Position numbers and translations under genes: made by a program. The notes under the pieces are model-generated. The model worked only from the letters and a program-made list of their open reading frames with translations. It searched no databases and was not told where the DNA came from. This document shows positions 7,077 through 41,162 of a DNA stretch of 64,000 bases, piece by piece. Source of the stretch: Roseomonas sp. OT10 (lineage in GTDB: Bacteria; Pseudomonadota; Alphaproteobacteria; Acetobacterales; Acetobacteraceae); contig NZ_CP087719.1 in the NCBI RefSeq assembly GCF_020991085.1, positions 1,446,001-1,510,000 on the forward strand. The letters run 5' to 3'. Numbering within the stretch: position 1 is the first letter of the stretch; each line of letters starts with the position of its first letter.

Positions 7077-8470
7077 CAGACGACTGCGAGGCTCTCCCGG
7101 CGCAGCTGGACGGCCAGGGCGTCCAGCGCGCGGCCGAAGCGGTCCAGCATCTCGTCCACCTCCGCCTCGGTGATGATCAGCGGGGGGGCGAAGCCGATGC
7201 TGTCGTTGGTCATGGCGCGCAGGATCACGCCGTGCTCGTGGCCCAGCTGCACCAGCCGCGCGCCGACCTTCAGCTTCGGGTCGAAGTTGCGCCGGGCATG
7301 GCGGTCCGCGACCAGCTCCACCCCCGCGATCAGGCCGGTGCCGCGCACCTCGCCCACCAGCGGATGGTCGGCGAAGCGCCGGCGCAGCCCGGCCTGCATG
7401 CAGGCCCCGACCGTGCGGGCATGGCCGACGATGTCGAGTTCGTCGTAGATCTTCAGGGTCTCGACCGCGACGGCGGCGGCGACGGGGTGACCGGAATAGG
7501 TGAAGCCGTGGCCCCAGGTGCCGACCTCGGCGCTGCCCTGCGCCAGCCCGTCGAAGATCCGTTCCGTCACCAGCACGCCCGAGATCGGCAGGAAGGAGGC
7601 GGAGAGCGCCTTGGCGCAGGTCAGGATGTCCGGCTCCATCCCGAAGGTCTGGCTGCCCCAGTAGGCGCCGGTGCGGCCGAAGCCGCAGATCACCTCGTCG
7701 GCGACCAGCAGGATGTCGTACTTGCGCAGCACCGCCTGGATCTTCGGGAAGTAGCCGGCAGGGGGCAGGATCACGCCGCCCGCGCCCATCACCGGCTCGG
7801 CGAACATCGCCGCCACCGTGTCGGGGTCCTCGCGCAGGATCAGCGCCTCCAGCTCCTCGGCGAGGCGGGTGGCGAAGGCCTCCTCGCTCTCGCCCGGCCG
7901 CGCCTCGTGGTAGTGGTGCGGCGTGCCGGCATGCAGGATGCCCGCGATCGGCAGGTCGAAGATCCGGTGGTTGACGGGCAGGCCGGTCAGCGAGGCGGCG
8001 GCGACGGTGACCCCGTGATACGCCTTCATCCGCGAGATGATCTTCTTCTTCCGCGGCCGGCCGACCGCGTTGTTGTAGTACCAGATCATCTTGACCGCGC
8101 TGTCGTTCGCCTCCGACCCGGAATTGGCGAAGAAGGCGCGCGCCATCGGCACGGGCGCGCGGGCCACCAGCATCTCCGACAGCTCGATCAGCGGCTCGTG
8201 CGTCTTGGCGGTGAAGGCGTGGTAGAAGGGCAGCTTGCGCATCTGCGCCTCGGCCGCCCGCACAAGCCGCTCGTTGTCGAAGCCGAGGGAGGCGCACCAC
8301 AGGCCCGCGACGCTCTCGATGTACTCCTTACCGAACTCGTCCACGACGCACACGCCGCGGCCGCGCTCGATGACCAGGGAGCCGGTCTCGCGATGCGCCT
8401 GCAGCTCCGTATAGGGGTGCAGGACATGGGCCGCGTCACGGGCGGCGGCGGAGTTGGGGCGCGGAGGCAT
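7076..8470 (-). CDS. Class III PLP-dependent aminotransferase
   Basis: Encodes 464 residues from the ATG at 8470 (MPPRPNSAAAR). A longer in-frame reading extends upstream but lacks family character. Fold type I features are present: FFANSGSEANDSAVK for phosphate binding, AYHGVTVAAASLTG, DEVICGFGRTG before the cofactor Asp region, and the PLP lysine in LTCAKALSASFLPISGV. The length matches omega-amino acid:pyruvate transaminases. As the first gene of a four-gene operon with an O-antigen ligase-like protein it could supply an amino sugar or amino acid decoration. A stand-alone amine or beta-alanine transaminase role is equally possible. Confidence 0.88.
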   Translation of the reverse strand: MPPRPNSAAARDAAHVLHPYTELQAHRETGSLVIERGRGVCVVDEFGKEYIESVAGLWCASLGFDNERLVRAAEAQMRKLPFYHAFTAKTHEPLIELSEMLVARAPVPMARAFFANSGSEANDSAVKMIWYYNNAVGRPRKKKIISRMKAYHGVTVAAASLTGLPVNHRIFDLPIAGILHAGTPHHYHEARPGESEEAFATRLAEELEALILREDPDTVAAMFAEPVMGAGGVILPPAGYFPKIQAVLRKYDILLVADEVICGFGRTGAYWGSQTFGMEPDILTCAKALSASFLPISGVLVTERIFDGLAQGSAEVGTWGHGFTYSGHPVAAAVAVETLKIYDELDIVGHARTVGACMQAGLRRRFADHPLVGEVRGTGLIAGVELVADRHARRNFDPKLKVGARLVQLGHEHGVILRAMTNDSIGFAPPLIITEAEVDEMLDRFGRALDALAVQLRRESLAVV

Positions 8471-8618
8471 CGGGGCTGGTCCCTGGGGCGGCTTCGGCGG
8501 CAGTCTAGGACGGATCGGGCCGGGCTGGACACCGCGGCGGGCGCGGGGGGCAGGGTCCGCCGGCGCGCAGGGCCCGGGGTGGCTTGCGCTCCGGCGAGGC
8601 CTGGCCGAGCCTCGCGCC

Positions 8619-9215
8619 ATGCCGCCCGCCGTCGTGCCCCCTGCCTCGCGACCTCCCCGCTGGCCATGGGCCGTCGCCGCCATCCTCGCGATCCTGGCGC
8701 TGGTCGCCGCGGTGCAGCTGGCGATGGGGCGGGTGCCCTGGTGCAGCTGCGGGACGATCAAGCTCTGGCACGGGCAGGTGCAGAGCGCCGAGAACTCGCA
8801 GCACCTGTCGGACTGGTACACGCCCTCGCACATCGTGCACGGGCTGCTCTTCTACGCGGCGCTGCGCTGGCTCGTGCCGCGCTGGCCGCTCTCCTGGCGC
8901 GCCGTGGCGGCCACGGCGGTGGAGGCGGCCTGGGAGATCGTGGAGAACACCAACGCCGTCATCCGCCACTACCGCGAGGCCACCATCTCCCTCGACTATT
9001 TCGGGGACAGCGTCGTCAACTCGCTGTCCGACATCCTGGCGATGCTGGCGGGGTTCGCGCTGGCGGCGTGGCTGCCCGCCTGGGCCTCGGTCCTGGTCGG
9101 GCTGGGGCTGGAACTGCTCGCCCTGGCGGTGATCCGCGACAACCTGACCCTGAACGTGCTCATGCTGCTCTACTCGTCGGAGGCGATCCGGCGGTGGCAG
9201 TCCGGCGGGGGGTGA
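8619..9215 (+). CDS. DUF2585 (UPF0314) inner-membrane protein
   Basis: The 198-residue protein starts at the ATG giving MPPAVVPPASRP. It has an N-terminal membrane segment (around 15-37) and further hydrophobic segments. The conserved family blocks are CGTIKLWHG, DWYTPSHIVHGLLFY, VEAAWEIVENTN and DYFGDSVVNSLSDILAM. Their Trp, His and Glu residues are typical of DUF2585 proteins, which are widespread in Alphaproteobacteria and of unknown function. It is divergent from the aminotransferase and convergent with the first GH16-RTX gene. A CCCCC-GCC-GGGGG hairpin at about 9217-9229 may terminate both transcripts. Confidence 0.85.
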   Translation: MPPAVVPPASRPPRWPWAVAAILAILALVAAVQLAMGRVPWCSCGTIKLWHGQVQSAENSQHLSDWYTPSHIVHGLLFYAALRWLVPRWPLSWRAVAATAVEAAWEIVENTNAVIRHYREATISLDYFGDSVVNSLSDILAMLAGFALAAWLPAWASVLVGLGLELLALAVIRDNLTLNVLMLLYSSEAIRRWQSGGG

Positions 9216-34203: not shown

Positions 34204-34965
34204 ATGGATATAAATACATTAATAGGCATCATAGCAAATCCGTTAGGAGTGCTGTCATTCTTGATGGGATTTTATTTTTATTACAAGGCCAGGATGATAA
34301 CGCGAGTCTCCTACAGCGTTCATTGTCAGGAATTGCTGGGAGAGAAAAAGAATAGTCTTCCCGGGGAAATATCTATTCTTTTTAATGGATCTGAAATAAG
34401 ATCTCTCTATAGAATAACGATAAGAGTATGGAACTCAGGTACTACGACGATCACAAAACATGCGGTTATTCAGAGCGACAAACCTGTAATATTAATTCCG
34501 ACAGTTCGTTCTGTTCTTAAGGCAACAATAGCGAAGACTTCCGTCGAGCACAACAAATTCTCAATGACACCAGATGAAAACATGGCCGCAACAATATTTC
34601 TGGATTTTGATTATTTTGAGCGACATCAAGGCGTAAAAATTGAATTATTAACTGAGGACGACCCTGGCGATGCTTCCAATGTTCGGGTTAGCGGAACAGT
34701 TCAAGGCATGCCTGGGGGATTTGTTAGAACAAATCCAGCCGCTAAAGAGGACGGAATTGGATGTTTAGTTCTTGTGATTGTTGGGTGCATTTTTGCTATT
34801 TTTGTATTTTTAGCAAGATATCTTAATGATGCCATTAGCAAAGAAAATTGGGCGTGGATTAGTTTGCTGTTATCCGTAGCGGCTCCAATAATAGTTATAA
34901 TTTCTGTGCGGGTTCCTCGTTTATCCATTATGCGGCGACATTTTCCACCCTTGCACCTCAAATAA
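34204..34965 (+). CDS. AT-rich orphan membrane protein
   Basis: Encodes 253 residues with base composition near 38-40% GC and A/T-ending codons (ATA, TTA, AAT), unlike every neighbour, which indicates recent acquisition. GAGGTG lies just upstream of the ATG. Membrane segments are at about 8-27 (one), 185-205 and 217-236. Between them is a soluble beta-rich domain of about 155 residues with SIRVWNSGT-like character (ITIRVWNSGTTTITKHAV), a pattern I associate with uncharacterised accessory membrane proteins. I recognise no named family. It starts 34 bases after the broken toxin gene. Confidence 0.75.
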   Translation: MDINTLIGIIANPLGVLSFLMGFYFYYKARMITRVSYSVHCQELLGEKKNSLPGEISILFNGSEIRSLYRITIRVWNSGTTTITKHAVIQSDKPVILIPTVRSVLKATIAKTSVEHNKFSMTPDENMAATIFLDFDYFERHQGVKIELLTEDDPGDASNVRVSGTVQGMPGGFVRTNPAAKEDGIGCLVLVIVGCIFAIFVFLARYLNDAISKENWAWISLLLSVAAPIIVIISVRVPRLSIMRRHFPPLHLK

Positions 34966-36524: not shown

Positions 36525-36733
36525 GGCGGCGGGGTTCCTCCGTTTGCCGCCACGCTAATCCGGTTCCGCCGCGCTGTCGCCGCCCCGCGGTCGCCCGCTA
36601 CCGCCCCGGTGTCTGGGTCGCGCCGGGGCGCCAAGGCTGCCAGGGCGCCGCCCGGCATCGGTCGCCCCGTCCCCTGCGCGGCGCGCGGCTCCGCGCCTCT
36701 TGCGCCGTCGCGGCGGCGGCCGCATACCGGCGG
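36525..36733. other. Divergent intergenic region before the TPP riboswitch
   Basis: It should hold the promoter for the minus-strand dehydratase and the plus-strand riboswitch transcript. The sequence is uniformly GC-rich and I could not pick out convincing promoter hexamers or an operator of the TTGT..ACAA type. Confidence 0.4.
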
Positions 36734-36828
36734 CATCATCGGGGGGAGCCCGTTCGCGGGCTGAGAGGCGGGATCGGCCCGCGACCCCTGGAACCTGATC
36801 CGGTTAGGACCGGCGAAGGGATCGGTGA
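36734..36828 (+). promoter_or_regulatory. TPP riboswitch (THI box)
   Basis: All conserved blocks are present in order: GGGGGGAGCCCG-TTCG-CGGGCTGAGA (P2/P3 with the CUGAGA pyrimidine-binding loop), a GGCGGGATCGGCCCGC stem, GACCCCTGGAACCTGATC, and CCGGTTAGGACCGGCGAAGG ending in GATCGG. This is a complete aptamer that binds thiamine pyrophosphate. It points rightward to the solute-binding protein gene and has a Shine-Dalgarno-masking hairpin downstream, consistent with translational control. Confidence 0.95.
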
Positions 36829-36940
36829 GTCCGCATGGCCAGCCCGCGCTGCCCCCACCCCCGCTCCGAGCGGTGCGACGCCTCCCGGCGCCGTGGCCGG
36901 CCGGCGCGGGCGTGCCGCGCGCCCGCTGGCCGGCGCCCAC

Positions 36941-36972
36941 CCTCCGCGCCGGTTGCCCCGGACGCGCGGAGG
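36941..36972 (+). promoter_or_regulatory. Shine-Dalgarno-sequestering hairpin (riboswitch expression platform)
   Basis: CCTCCGCGC (36941-36949) is perfectly complementary to GCGCGGAGG (36964-36972), which contains the ribosome binding site eight bases before the ATG at 36981. The loop is 14 bases. This is the usual off-state of TPP switches in Gram-negative bacteria and supports the assigned start. Confidence 0.65.
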
Positions 36973-36980
36973 CTTCCGGA

Positions 36981-38564
36981 ATGCTCCATCGCCGCACCCT
37001 GCTGACGGCCGCTGCCGCGGCGCCGCTGCTGGCGCGTCCCGCGCTGGCCCAGCCCGCCGTGGCGCCGGCCGCCCGCGCCCGGACGCTGCGCTTCGTGCCG
37101 CAGGCGGCGCTGACCGTGCTGGACCCGATCTTCCTCCAGGCAACGATCACCACGACGCACGGCTTCTGCGTCTTCGACACGCTCTACGCCACCGACACGA
37201 CGCTCGCCCTGCACCCGCAGATGGCCGAGGGGCACAGCGTCTCGGATGACGGCCTCACCTGGACCGTCCGCCTGCGCGAGGGGCTGAAGTTCCACGACGG
37301 CGAGCCGGTGCGCGCCACGGACTGCATCGCCTCGCTGGAGCGCTGGGCCTCGCGCGACCTGTTCGGCCAGATCCTGCGCAAGGTGGTGGGGGAGTGGCGC
37401 GCGACCGACGACCGGACCTTCACGGTGCGGCTGACGCGGCCCTTCCCGGCCTTCCTCTACGCGCTGGGCAAGCCCGCCTCGGTGCCCTGCTTCATCATGC
37501 CGGAGCGCCTCGCCCGCACCCCGGGCAACCAGCCGATCACCGAGATCACCGGCTCCGGCCCCTGGCGCTTCCTGGCCGACGAGTTCGTCTCCGGCAGCCG
37601 CGTCGCCTATGCGCGCAACGACGCCTACGTGCCGCGCGAGGAGCCGGCGAACGGCGCCTCCGGCGGCAAGCGGGTGCATTTCGACCGGCTGGAGTGGCAC
37701 ATCATCCCCGATGGCGCGACGGCGGCGGCGGCGCTGCGCACGGGCGAGGTGGACTGGGTGGAGTACCCGCTGCCCGACCTGGTTCCCCAGATGCAGCGCG
37801 ACCCACACCTGCGGACCCAGGTCTACGACCCGACCGGCTTCCTCGGCGTGCTGCGGCCCAACCACCTGCACCCGCCCTTCGACCGGGTGGAGGTGCGGCG
37901 CGCGCTGCGCGACATGGTCAGCCAGCCGGACCACATGGCCAGCGTGGCCCAGCCGAACGACTGGCAGGAATGCCACGCCATGTTCCCCTGTACCCTGGCC
38001 GGGGTGGAGAACCGCCCGGCCGCGCCGCGCGACCTCGACCGCGCCCGGGCGATCGTGAAGGAGGCCGGGCAGGCGGGGGCGAAGGTGGTGATCCTCAACC
38101 CCTCCGACTTCGCCGCCATCGCACCGCAGGGGCGGCTCGCCGCCGACCTGCTCACGCGCATGGGGCTCAACGTTGATCTGGTGGAGACGGACTGGGCGAC
38201 GGTGCTCCAGCGCCGCACCAACCGCGACACGGTGGAGAAGGGGGGCTGGAGCCTGCTGCCCACCAACTTCCCCGCCGGCTCGGTCGCGAATCCGGCGGTG
38301 AACTACGGCGTGCGCGGCGACGGCGCCTCCGCCTGGTTCGGCTGGCCCACCGACCCGGTGGCGGAGGCGGCGATCCAGGACTGGCTCTACGCGCCCGATG
38401 CCGCCGCCCAGGCCGTTGCCTTCCGCGCGGTGCAGCAGGCGGCCTGGGACAGCGTGCCCTTCATCCCCACGGGGCTGTTCGTGTTGCAGACGGGCTTCCG
38501 CGCCGACCTCTCCGGCGTGCTCCAGGGGCCGAACCCCTATCTGTGGAATGTGAAGCGGGCCTGA
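36981..38564 (+). CDS. ABC transporter solute-binding protein, family 5 (DppA-like), under a TPP riboswitch
   Basis: ATG at 36981 behind GGAGG gives 527 residues. The export signal is HRRTLLTAAAAAPLLARP, cut near PALAQP. It may be Tat-dependent because of the Arg pair. The body matches SBP_bac_5: TLDPIF-like entry (VLDPIFLQATITTTHGFCVF), MAEGHSVSDDGLTWTVRLRE, GLKFHDGEPVRATDCIASLERW, GSGPWRF and the C-terminal VPFIPTGLF. Members bind oligopeptides, nickel or small organics. Regulation by TPP suggests thiamine, a thiamine precursor or a salvage product as ligand. No permease or ATPase genes adjoin it, so it would have to share another transporter or act with the kinase gene that follows without a gap. 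Confidence 0.85.
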   Translation: MLHRRTLLTAAAAAPLLARPALAQPAVAPAARARTLRFVPQAALTVLDPIFLQATITTTHGFCVFDTLYATDTTLALHPQMAEGHSVSDDGLTWTVRLREGLKFHDGEPVRATDCIASLERWASRDLFGQILRKVVGEWRATDDRTFTVRLTRPFPAFLYALGKPASVPCFIMPERLARTPGNQPITEITGSGPWRFLADEFVSGSRVAYARNDAYVPREEPANGASGGKRVHFDRLEWHIIPDGATAAAALRTGEVDWVEYPLPDLVPQMQRDPHLRTQVYDPTGFLGVLRPNHLHPPFDRVEVRRALRDMVSQPDHMASVAQPNDWQECHAMFPCTLAGVENRPAAPRDLDRARAIVKEAGQAGAKVVILNPSDFAAIAPQGRLAADLLTRMGLNVDLVETDWATVLQRRTNRDTVEKGGWSLLPTNFPAGSVANPAVNYGVRGDGASAWFGWPTDPVAEAAIQDWLYAPDAAAQAVAFRAVQQAAWDSVPFIPTGLFVLQTGFRADLSGVLQGPNPYLWNVKRA

Positions 38565-41162
38565 GTGGCCGAGGCGCCCGGCGCCCTTGTCTCCCCCGCG
38601 GGGACGGGGCAAAGCCGCGGGGTGGCCTCGTCCCGTCGTCCCGCCGCGCCTGACCCGGATGCGCCGCCCGGCACCCCGGGCGGGGCGGCACCCGCCTGCG
38701 AGCCGACCTGGGACGAGCCGACCCGCCTCGCCACCCTGCGCAGCTACGGCATCCTCGACACGCCGCCAGAGCCCGGCTTCGACGAGCTGACGGCCCTGGC
38801 CGGGCGCCTTTGCCACGCCCCGATCGCCGTCGTCACGCTGGTGGACGAGGTGCGGCAGTGGTTCAAGTCGGAAATCGGCCTGGGCGTGCGCGAGACGGAA
38901 CGGGGCGTCTCCATCTGCGCCCATGCGATGCTGCAGCGGGAGCTCTTCGTGGTGCCGGACACCACGCGCGATCCGCGCTTCGCCGGCAACCCGCTGGTCA
39001 CCGACGCGCCGCACCTGCGCTTCTACGCCGGCGCGCCCCTCCATTCCGCGGACGGCCTGCCGCTCGGCAGCCTGTGCGTGCTGGACTACGTGCCGCGGCC
39101 GGATGGCCTGGCGCCGGATCAGGCCTCCGCCCTGCTCGCCCTGGCGCGCCAGGTGATGAACCAGCTCGAGCTGCGGCGGGCCCTGGCCCAGCGTGACGCG
39201 GCGCTGGCCGCGCGGCATGAGGTGGAGGAGCGGATGGAGCTCGCCCTCGATGCCGCCGACACCGTCGGAACCTATGAGATCGACCTGCCGGCCGGCCGCC
39301 TGCGCGCCGATGCGCGCTTCGCCCGCCTCTACGGCCTCACCGTCGCCGAGGCCGCCTCCGGCGTGCCGCTGGAGCGGGCGGCGGCAGCCATGCTGCCGGA
39401 GGACCGCGAGCGCGTGCTGGCCAGCCTGCGGACCGCCGTCGCCGGCTACGACACCACCATCTCCCACGAGTACCGGCTGCACTCGCGCGAGGGCGGGCCG
39501 CGCTGGGTCGCCACCCGCGGCCGCTTCCAGCGCGACGGCTCCGGCCAGGCCATCCGGCTGACCGGCGTCATCCTGGACGTCACCGAGCGCAAGCGGGTGG
39601 AGCAGGTGCTGCACGGGCTGCGCACCGGGCTGGAACGCACCGTGGCCGAGCGCACGGCCGAGCTGGCGCGGGAGCGGGCGCAGCTCGACGCGGTGCTGAC
39701 GCACCTGCCGCTGGGCGTCCTCATCCTGGATGCCCCGGACGGGACGCTGCGCTCGGCCAACGCCATGGCGCGCACCATCCTGGGCTCGTCGGGGCCGTAT
39801 CTCTTCCAGGGCGCGATCCACCCCGATGGCCGACCCTATGCGCGGGAGGAGTATCCGGGCGCGAAGGTGCTGCGCAGCGGCCAGGCGACGGGGCCGGAGG
39901 ACATGCAGTACCGCCACCGCAACGGCGAGATTGCCTGGCTATCCATCCGCGCCGCGCCGGTCCGCGACGAGCTGGGCCAGCCGGTCGCGGTGGTGGTGCT
40001 GATCGACGACATCACGCGCCAGCGCCAGACGGAGGAGGCGCTGCGCCAGTCGCAGAAGATGGAGGCGGTGGGCCAGCTCACCGGCGGCATCGCGCACGAC
40101 TTCAACAACCTGCTGACCGGCATCGTCGGCAGCCTGGAGCTGCTGCGCAACCGCATCGCCGGCGGCCGCCCGGAGGGGCTGGAGCGCTACATCGGGGCGG
40201 CCATCGCCTCCTCCCACCGCGCGGCGGCGCTGACCCATCGCCTGCTGGCCTTCGCCCGCCGGCAGCCGCTCGACCCCCGGCCGGTGGACGTGAACCGGCT
40301 GGTCGCCTCGATGGAGGATCTGCTCCGCCGCAGCCTGGGCGAGGCCATCCAGCTCGAGATCCGCGCCTGGCCGGGACTGTGGTCCACGCTTTGCGACGCG
40401 AACCAGCTGGAGAACACCCTGCTCAACTTGGTCATCAACGCCCGCGACGCGATGCCGGGCGGCGGGCGCGTGGTGATCGAGACCCGCAACGATCCCGCGG
40501 GGCCGGCGGCGGAGGCGGACGGCGTGCTGCTGCGCGTGGTCGACAACGGGACGGGCATGACCCCCGAGGTGATGCGCCGCGCCTTCGATCCCTTCTTCAC
40601 CACCAAGCCCATCGGCCAGGGCACCGGGCTGGGGCTGTCGATGATCTACGGCTTCGTGCGCCAGTCCGGCGGGCAGGTCGGCATCGAGAGCCGGGTGGGG
40701 CAGGGCACCGCCCTTTCCATCCGCCTGCCACGGCACAGCGGCGCCGCGGAGGCGGAGCGGCTCTCCGCCGCCTCCCTCGTCGCACCGGACCCGGGCGCCG
40801 GGGAGACGGTGCTGGTGGTGGAGGACGAGGACACCGTCCGGCAGGTCGTCATCGAGGTGCTGCGGGAGCTCGGCTACCGCGCGCTGGAGGCGCCGGACGG
40901 CCCGCATGGCCTCGCCCTGATGCAGTCGGTCGGGCGGATCGACCTGCTCGTCACCGATGTCGGCCTGCCGGGCGGGATGAACGGCCGGCAGCTGGCGGAG
41001 GCGGCGCGGGCCCTTCGGCCGGAGCTGAAGGTGCTGTTCATCACCGGCTATGCCGATGATGCCTTCGGCCCGGAAGGGCTGGCCCCGGGCATGCAGATGC
41101 TCACCAAGCCCTTCACCCTGGACGCGCTGGCGGCCCGGTTGCGGGAGATGGTGTGCGGCTGA
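38565..41162 (+). CDS. Hybrid sensor histidine kinase/response regulator (GAF-PAS-PAS-HisKA-HATPase-REC)
   Basis: GTG immediately after the preceding stop gives 865 residues. A disordered N terminus (1-45) is followed by a GAF domain (about 50-205), two PAS segments (about 220-340 and 370-480) linked by a coiled region, and HisKA with the phosphoacceptor His near 510 (LTGGIAHDFNNLLTG). A HATPase follows with NLVINARDAMPGGG and GTGLGLSMIYGF, then a C-terminal receiver with Asp near 798 (VTDVGLPGG). No membrane segment is visible, so it senses a cytoplasmic cue. The zero spacing suggests co-expression with the TPP-regulated binding protein. No separate regulator gene is next to it. Confidence 0.9.
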   Translation: MAEAPGALVSPAGTGQSRGVASSRRPAAPDPDAPPGTPGGAAPACEPTWDEPTRLATLRSYGILDTPPEPGFDELTALAGRLCHAPIAVVTLVDEVRQWFKSEIGLGVRETERGVSICAHAMLQRELFVVPDTTRDPRFAGNPLVTDAPHLRFYAGAPLHSADGLPLGSLCVLDYVPRPDGLAPDQASALLALARQVMNQLELRRALAQRDAALAARHEVEERMELALDAADTVGTYEIDLPAGRLRADARFARLYGLTVAEAASGVPLERAAAAMLPEDRERVLASLRTAVAGYDTTISHEYRLHSREGGPRWVATRGRFQRDGSGQAIRLTGVILDVTERKRVEQVLHGLRTGLERTVAERTAELARERAQLDAVLTHLPLGVLILDAPDGTLRSANAMARTILGSSGPYLFQGAIHPDGRPYAREEYPGAKVLRSGQATGPEDMQYRHRNGEIAWLSIRAAPVRDELGQPVAVVVLIDDITRQRQTEEALRQSQKMEAVGQLTGGIAHDFNNLLTGIVGSLELLRNRIAGGRPEGLERYIGAAIASSHRAAALTHRLLAFARRQPLDPRPVDVNRLVASMEDLLRRSLGEAIQLEIRAWPGLWSTLCDANQLENTLLNLVINARDAMPGGGRVVIETRNDPAGPAAEADGVLLRVVDNGTGMTPEVMRRAFDPFFTTKPIGQGTGLGLSMIYGFVRQSGGQVGIESRVGQGTALSIRLPRHSGAAEAERLSAASLVAPDPGAGETVLVVEDEDTVRQVVIEVLRELGYRALEAPDGPHGLALMQSVGRIDLLVTDVGLPGGMNGRQLAEAARALRPELKVLFITGYADDAFGPEGLAPGMQMLTKPFTLDALAARLREMVCG

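Follow-up and report, generated by a model that had tools for sequence, protein, structure and literature searches.

The window analysed here, a 64 kb stretch of the Roseomonas sp. OT10 genome (5.69 Mb in 3 contigs, 100% complete; handle G000), carries a TPP riboswitch followed on the same strand by the gene for a family-5 solute-binding protein and then by that for a hybrid histidine kinase (Table 1). The aptamer is the sole Rfam match over the gathering score in the 64 kb (71.6 bits against 54.3 for RF00059, E = 4e-12), and model positions 1–105 of 105 are aligned, confirming the complete aptamer of the original prediction; genome-wide, it is the only TPP riboswitch match. Control by TPP is well established for aptamers of this family, and the binding-protein gene is almost certainly subject to it.

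Table 1. Features of the riboswitch locus, numbered from the first base of the window.
Feature	Position	Strand	Basis
TPP riboswitch aptamer, complete	36732..36839	+	RF00059
Leader/expression platform, aptamer to start codon	36840..36980	+	Sequence, folding
Hairpin with Shine-Dalgarno sequence in 3' arm	36941..36972	+	RNA folding; function inferred
Family-5 solute-binding protein, 527 aa, proposed uptake receptor	36981..38564	+	PF00496
GAF-PAS-PAS hybrid histidine kinase, possibly co-transcribed here, outside the conserved unit	38565..41162	+	Domains

Downstream of the aptamer, the predicted hairpin (arms 36941–36949 and 36964–36972, 9 bp) covers the GGAGG at 36968–36972, 8 nt before the ATG. 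Folding of the leader 3' of the aptamer gave a predicted Shine-Dalgarno pairing of 0.98, a value reached by 5% of 60 shuffles. The 9-bp anti-Shine-Dalgarno hairpin originally described is thus borne out in the window, while its strong form is not uniform among orthologues: in 45 leaders (window included, start codons picked by a rule devised for this analysis) the pairing exceeded 0.9 in 13, and in 8 no more than 5% of shuffles reached its value. A single anti-Shine-Dalgarno platform common to all species is therefore not supported, and other species may switch differently. For OT10, the folding model suggests that switching may proceed through this hairpin.

The protein encoded by the controlled gene has the family-5 fold. 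PF00496 (SBP_bac_5; 192.6 bits, over the Pfam gathering threshold) is the sole Pfam family found in it, NMT1 (PF09084) is absent by Pfam, and the AlphaFold pLDDT is 89.9. Its N-terminus (MLHRRTLL...) reads by eye as a twin-arginine-like signal peptide. For the protein earlier described as DppA-like, the NCBIfam equivalog scores all lie below their cut-offs (GsiB, the best, 92.2 against 594 bits; NikA, 78 against 393; DppA, 61.1 against 1005). The nearest solved structure, at 41% identity, is PDB 8vdx, a family-5 binding protein of Bordetella bronchiseptica RB50 whose title names neither function nor ligand, and the only paper containing the string 8VDX is unrelated by title. Structures ranked after it are of peptide-, opine- or nickel-complex-binding kinds, and such compounds are frequent ligands of family-5 proteins. 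An alignment of 56 of the 81 available sequences yielded 44 positions with at least 94% constancy in 35 orthologues (that of the window among them) and at most 25% in 21 paralogues; C63, W195, Y262, Y282, D327, H332, W489 and F494 are examples of such clade-specific residues.

The pairing of aptamer and gene is conserved. Full-length orthologues of at least 59% identity occur in 18 of 150 genomes of the family, and among the matches listed 15 of them show RF00059 shortly before the gene, in the same orientation. The orthologues without an aptamer (G112, G024 and G121) are in genomes with one TPP match each, before thiC. A nineteenth copy, in G088 (L101, about 7320–8890), is split in two reading frames and also has no TPP aptamer; this genome likewise has thiC, so that all four aptamer-less copies in the 19 family genomes (three intact, one broken) are found in thiC-bearing genomes.

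A search of named genomes, whose loci overlap the family genomes so that the counts of the two sets are kept apart, gave among its best 80 loci 52 orthologues (57–74% identity, the nearest being that of Roseomonas mucosa at 74%) and 28 paralogues (at most 54%); some of the labels given to metagenome-assembled genomes (Microbispora, Asaia bogorensis, Phreatobacter) appear to be wrongly assigned. A covariance model trained on 21 TPP aptamers of the family, of which that of the window is the only one linked to the binding protein, found an aptamer at 67–88 bits in 44 of 51 testable orthologues and in none of the 28 paralogues, the scores falling from 67.3 bits to a next-best 14.4; L183, whose fetched sequence starts 39 bases ahead of the match, was dropped from the 52. 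This distribution and the gap in scores rule out chance or generic TPP matches. With the Rfam model, 28 of 31 orthologue loci exceeded the gathering score, and the remainder (L172, L175, L177) were also negative with the 21-aptamer model. The survey of orthologues for which the original prediction had called thus finds riboswitch and binding protein kept together in most of them.

Nor do the aptamer-less orthologues appear to hide a decayed copy. Rescanning nine of these loci with filters off (seven named loci, L089 and L101; for L086 and L095 the default filters were kept) revealed no remnant on the gene strand within 2 kb upstream, and the best match, of 16.3 bits, lay on the opposite strand within the gene of L172. 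In a quick tree the orthologues form one clade (SH-aLRT 100) with 45 rows carrying the aptamer, 7 without it and 1 cut. The aptamer label changes 4 times in all, against 26.3 in shuffles, and the starred branches force at least two changes. One gain followed by about three losses fits this pattern, the direction not being given by the change count.

The conserved unit is one gene. Ten transporter queries (six dpp/gsi, two thiP/thiQ and two ThiX/ThiZ) gave no permease or transporter match by tblastn at 1e-6 in the 64 kb window, in agreement with the original prediction that no permease or ATPase follows, and tblastn with dpp, gsi, thiP and ThiX permeases found none in any orthologue locus fetched; ATPase-type matches lay about 3 kb off in L088 and at least 5 kb off in L089. 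Neighbours vary across the loci of 18 relatives (about 8 kb per side, less on short contigs), in which genes were called by a GC-by-codon-position rule devised for this analysis. A same-strand gene directly 3', for a 195-residue protein, is present in one genus only (G035, G120), and a convergent gene follows in L088, L089, L093 and L099, its product being EipB-like by Pfam in L088. Nine Escherichia coli thi queries and ThiY found no thi gene beside the riboswitch in any binding-protein locus. The arrangement that would speak against control of the binding protein, a riboswitch standing before some other thi gene in orthologous loci, was thus looked for, and the sole match, in L084, was to a ThiF-family protein some 4 kb distant. 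Elsewhere in the window, a 253-aa ORF (34204–34965, + strand) has no Pfam match and shows hydrophobic stretches by eye.

The kinase gene, with its called start GTG at 38565, does begin at the first base after the stop codon of the binding-protein gene, as originally noted, and its product contains GAF_2, PAS_3, PAS_9, HisKA, HATPase_c and receiver domains. The coupling of the two genes drawn from this adjacency did not survive comparison. Neither the loci of 18 relatives (flanks of about 8 kb, shorter where contigs are short) nor those of the 52 named orthologues (about 4 kb, with the same limit) have a kinase homologue next to the binding protein; the one match to the kinase query, in L096, is a GAF-PAS piece at 41% that lies 3 kb off. 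The kinase is rejected as a partner for this lack of conserved adjacency; it is a neighbour in the OT10 genome alone, outside the unit of riboswitch and binding protein.

The gene content of the thiamine pathway bears on what the protein may bind. The OT10 genome lacks thiC and has thiE, thiG, thiD and tenA, with a short ORF before thiG that reads by eye like ThiS. Of the 150 family genomes, 43 lack thiC: 5 of these have the TPP-controlled binding protein, 20 a ThiY-like protein and 18 neither, these last thus having neither a ThiY-like nor a family-5 receptor as a pyrimidine route. The five that have the binding protein (G000, G044, G124, G141 and the 80% complete G120) show one TPP match each, ahead of its gene. 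The four near-complete ones keep thiG, thiE and thiD; in G120, at 80% completeness, thiG is present, ThiE is just under the cut-off and no ThiD exceeds it. TenA, found in 22 of 22 genomes with or without thiC, is not discriminating, and no ThiP exceeded the cut-off in 22 genomes that include OT10. As 14 of the 19 genomes that encode the binding protein also have thiC, this is not a salvage-only gene. The carriers searched for across genomes were ThiY and ThiP; PnuT, CytX, ThiV and YkoEDC are among the other carriers of thiamine or hydroxymethylpyrimidine (HMP).

THI5-like pyrimidine synthases have a CCC cysteine motif. Three of the eight NMT1-type matches of OT10 were read for such a synthase, which could take the place of ThiC, and these three lack the motif and have a signal-peptide-like start. 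Separately, in G087 a TPP riboswitch precedes the gene (L253:4959–5834) for a short NMT1-type protein of 291 aa (PF09084) with no obvious signal peptide by eye and no NCBIfam match at 1e-10, for which the roles of binding protein and of THI5-like enzyme are both possible.

Relatives with neither thiC nor the family-5 protein often have a ThiXYZ-like transporter downstream of a TPP riboswitch. All 12 genomes with the nearest ThiY-like proteins (at least 62% to that of G016) show, among the matches listed, a same-strand TPP match 1.47–1.74 kb upstream. Six such loci were opened, in G016, G107, G127, G038 and G087, which lack thiC, and in G011, which has it. In all six, the gene calls show the ThiY-like gene preceded by one of permease size, and in five an ATPase-sized gene comes before that, its absence in G011 perhaps being an effect of the gene caller. 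In the two loci run against Pfam, ATPase, permease and NMT1 were recovered in G016 and NMT1 in G127. No NCBIfam cut-off names these loci, which are taken to be ThiXYZ from riboswitch, Pfam and gene order. ThiY-like proteins occur in 33 of the 150 genomes and the family-5 protein in 19 (one broken), and the two never co-occur (one-sided Fisher 0.006, ignoring phylogeny and kinship; absences were called from per-genome match totals). Similar divergent genes stand beside the TPP-controlled ThiXYZ-like operon in L246, L247 and L251, and in L247 and L251 a PEP-mutase-like gene (by eye) is also beside it; the OT10 genome has a PEP-mutase gene (by Pfam, L102) about 27 kb from the riboswitch, without ThiXYZ beside it.

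As there is no permease of its own nearby, we propose that the binding protein docks on a shared Dpp-type permease. A set of the order binding protein-B-C-D-F was found in just two of the 28 paralogue loci, L221 (titled Octadecabacter) and L242 (titled Microvirga), both genera that we take to lie outside Acetobacteraceae; the stretches fetched for the other 26 hold no dpp-type permease. With the L242 permease, a partner of this receptor subfamily, as the query, each of nine genomes gave one DppB homologue at 64–66%, the next DppB matches among those listed being one at 55% (G141) and otherwise at most 48% full-length, with short fragments at 50%. In all six receptor-permease loci opened (L307, L308, L309, L310, L311 and L312), a tandem array of two to five receptors from this subfamily (three in OT10, two each in G102 and G044, three in G016, four in G003 and five in G127) precedes a single B-C-D-F set. 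That of OT10 occupies 2387.7–2391.5 kb of contig C1, or 2387.7–2396.6 kb with its receptors. These cores and the paralogues make up an expanded many-receptor system. The core is not specific to the riboswitch-controlled protein, since G016 and G127 have the core without that protein. On this evidence, which is anatomical throughout, the shared BCDF permease of OT10 is a tentative, quite possible partner.

We suggest that the protein takes part in the uptake of thiamine or a precursor, which is probable given TPP control, and that its ligand is then somewhat more likely a pyrimidine than intact thiamine; each of these judgements, from TPP control to the permease partner, is conditional on the one before. 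Among the pathway genes searched, a missing ThiC with ThiG, ThiE, ThiD and TenA retained makes the pyrimidine the likeliest ligand. When TPP is ample, it would bind the aptamer, the hairpin covering the Shine-Dalgarno sequence would form and translation of the binding protein would stop; when TPP is scarce, the protein would be made and exported to the periplasm. There it would capture a building block of thiamine, most likely HMP or an aminopyrimidine or formylaminopyrimidine breakdown product, thereby replacing ThiY of ThiXYZ, the TPP-controlled carrier of related genomes without the protein, and would dock on the Dpp-type BCDF permease that the tandem paralogues also serve. Leaving the permease step aside, a TPP-repressed receptor for the pyrimidine precursor, or for thiamine, is the reading we favour, as more likely than not. 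The full scheme is put forward with more doubt: a second, unrelated kind of pyrimidine receptor, encoded alone, would enter a common multi-receptor Dpp permease, and the level of a vitamin would alter what this importer takes up, in place of ThiXYZ.

Intact thiamine, or a phosphate ester of it, is an unlikely ligand by comparison, but it carries the most weight among the alternatives. Thiamine is the cargo of many TPP-controlled carriers, and both the TPP control seen here and the absence of ThiP would fit such a role equally well. Two observations argue for the pyrimidine instead: the near-complete thiC-less genomes G000, G044, G124 and G141 retain thiG, thiE and thiD, which an importer of thiamine would make needless, and none of the 150 genomes combines the protein with the NMT1-type ThiY system. 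We regard an unrelated nutrient such as a peptide, with TPP control incidental or meeting a general need, as improbable. The usual ligands of the family and the structures ranked after 8vdx, all of peptide, opine or nickel kinds, lean that way, against the retention of the aptamer across many species with none in 28 paralogue loci and the position of the gene as the sole TPP target in five thiC-less genomes.

The remaining two readings have very little probability. A thiamine-sensing module formed by binding protein and kinase, which the original prediction had offered as the alternative to a capture route, has in its favour the zero-base gap between the called genes in OT10; it is set back by the lack of such adjacency in the 18 relatives' and 52 named loci, and by the GAF-PAS kinase itself, in which no clear membrane segment is seen (the top 19-residue hydropathy window, 1.63, overlaps the GAF match). 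The capture route, by contrast, fits what was found. Even less probable is a riboswitch left over from a deleted thi gene and not regulating the binding protein, an idea that agrees with the absence of thiC from OT10. The same-genus genomes G102 and G003 keep thiC under a TPP riboswitch of its own and the binding protein under another, and orthologous sites show no thi gene beside the riboswitch. A deleted thi gene as the true target is accordingly rejected.

Compared with known systems, the TPP-repressed precursor receptor that we favour most resembles ThiXYZ, an ABC carrier of HMP or formylaminopyrimidine with the NMT1-type receptor ThiY, in being a TPP-controlled binding protein of thiC-less genomes; it differs in that its receptor belongs to PF00496 and not PF09084 and in having no permease or ATPase nearby, whereas ThiXYZ has its own. 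With ThiBPQ, an ABC carrier of thiamine, it shares the idea of riboswitch-controlled uptake; ThiB is of a different protein family, and ThiP did not exceed the cut-off in the 22 genomes, OT10 included. DppA1–A5 of Pseudomonas aeruginosa are di/tripeptide receptors, and we know of no vitamin control among them. Several family-5 receptors, DppA1–A5, share one DppBCDF permease in that species according to PMC4206461, which gives the likeness of many receptors to one permease; the OT10 protein differs as a distant, unlinked member under a TPP riboswitch, for which docking is proposed.

The main claim of the original prediction, namely that TPP regulates a family-5 binding protein distinct from the known thiamine carriers, is thus backed by conservation and gene content. 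No earlier report of such control was found in the literature searched, which included passages of PMC3766115, where 19 transporter orthologue groups are counted, and of PMC2211319; a prior mention is possible in the supplement of the former or in the 2002 thiamine regulon paper. What is new is the use of an unrelated, lone receptor, TPP-controlled precursor uptake itself being known. If the proposal is true, a further protein family joins the acquisition of vitamin B1, and several Roseomonas-type lineages that live without ThiC and without ThiXYZ would be explained. It would also give a ligand hypothesis for one of the many ligand-orphan binding proteins in these bacteria, and would offer a clean case of riboswitch control confined to the receptor of a shared importer.
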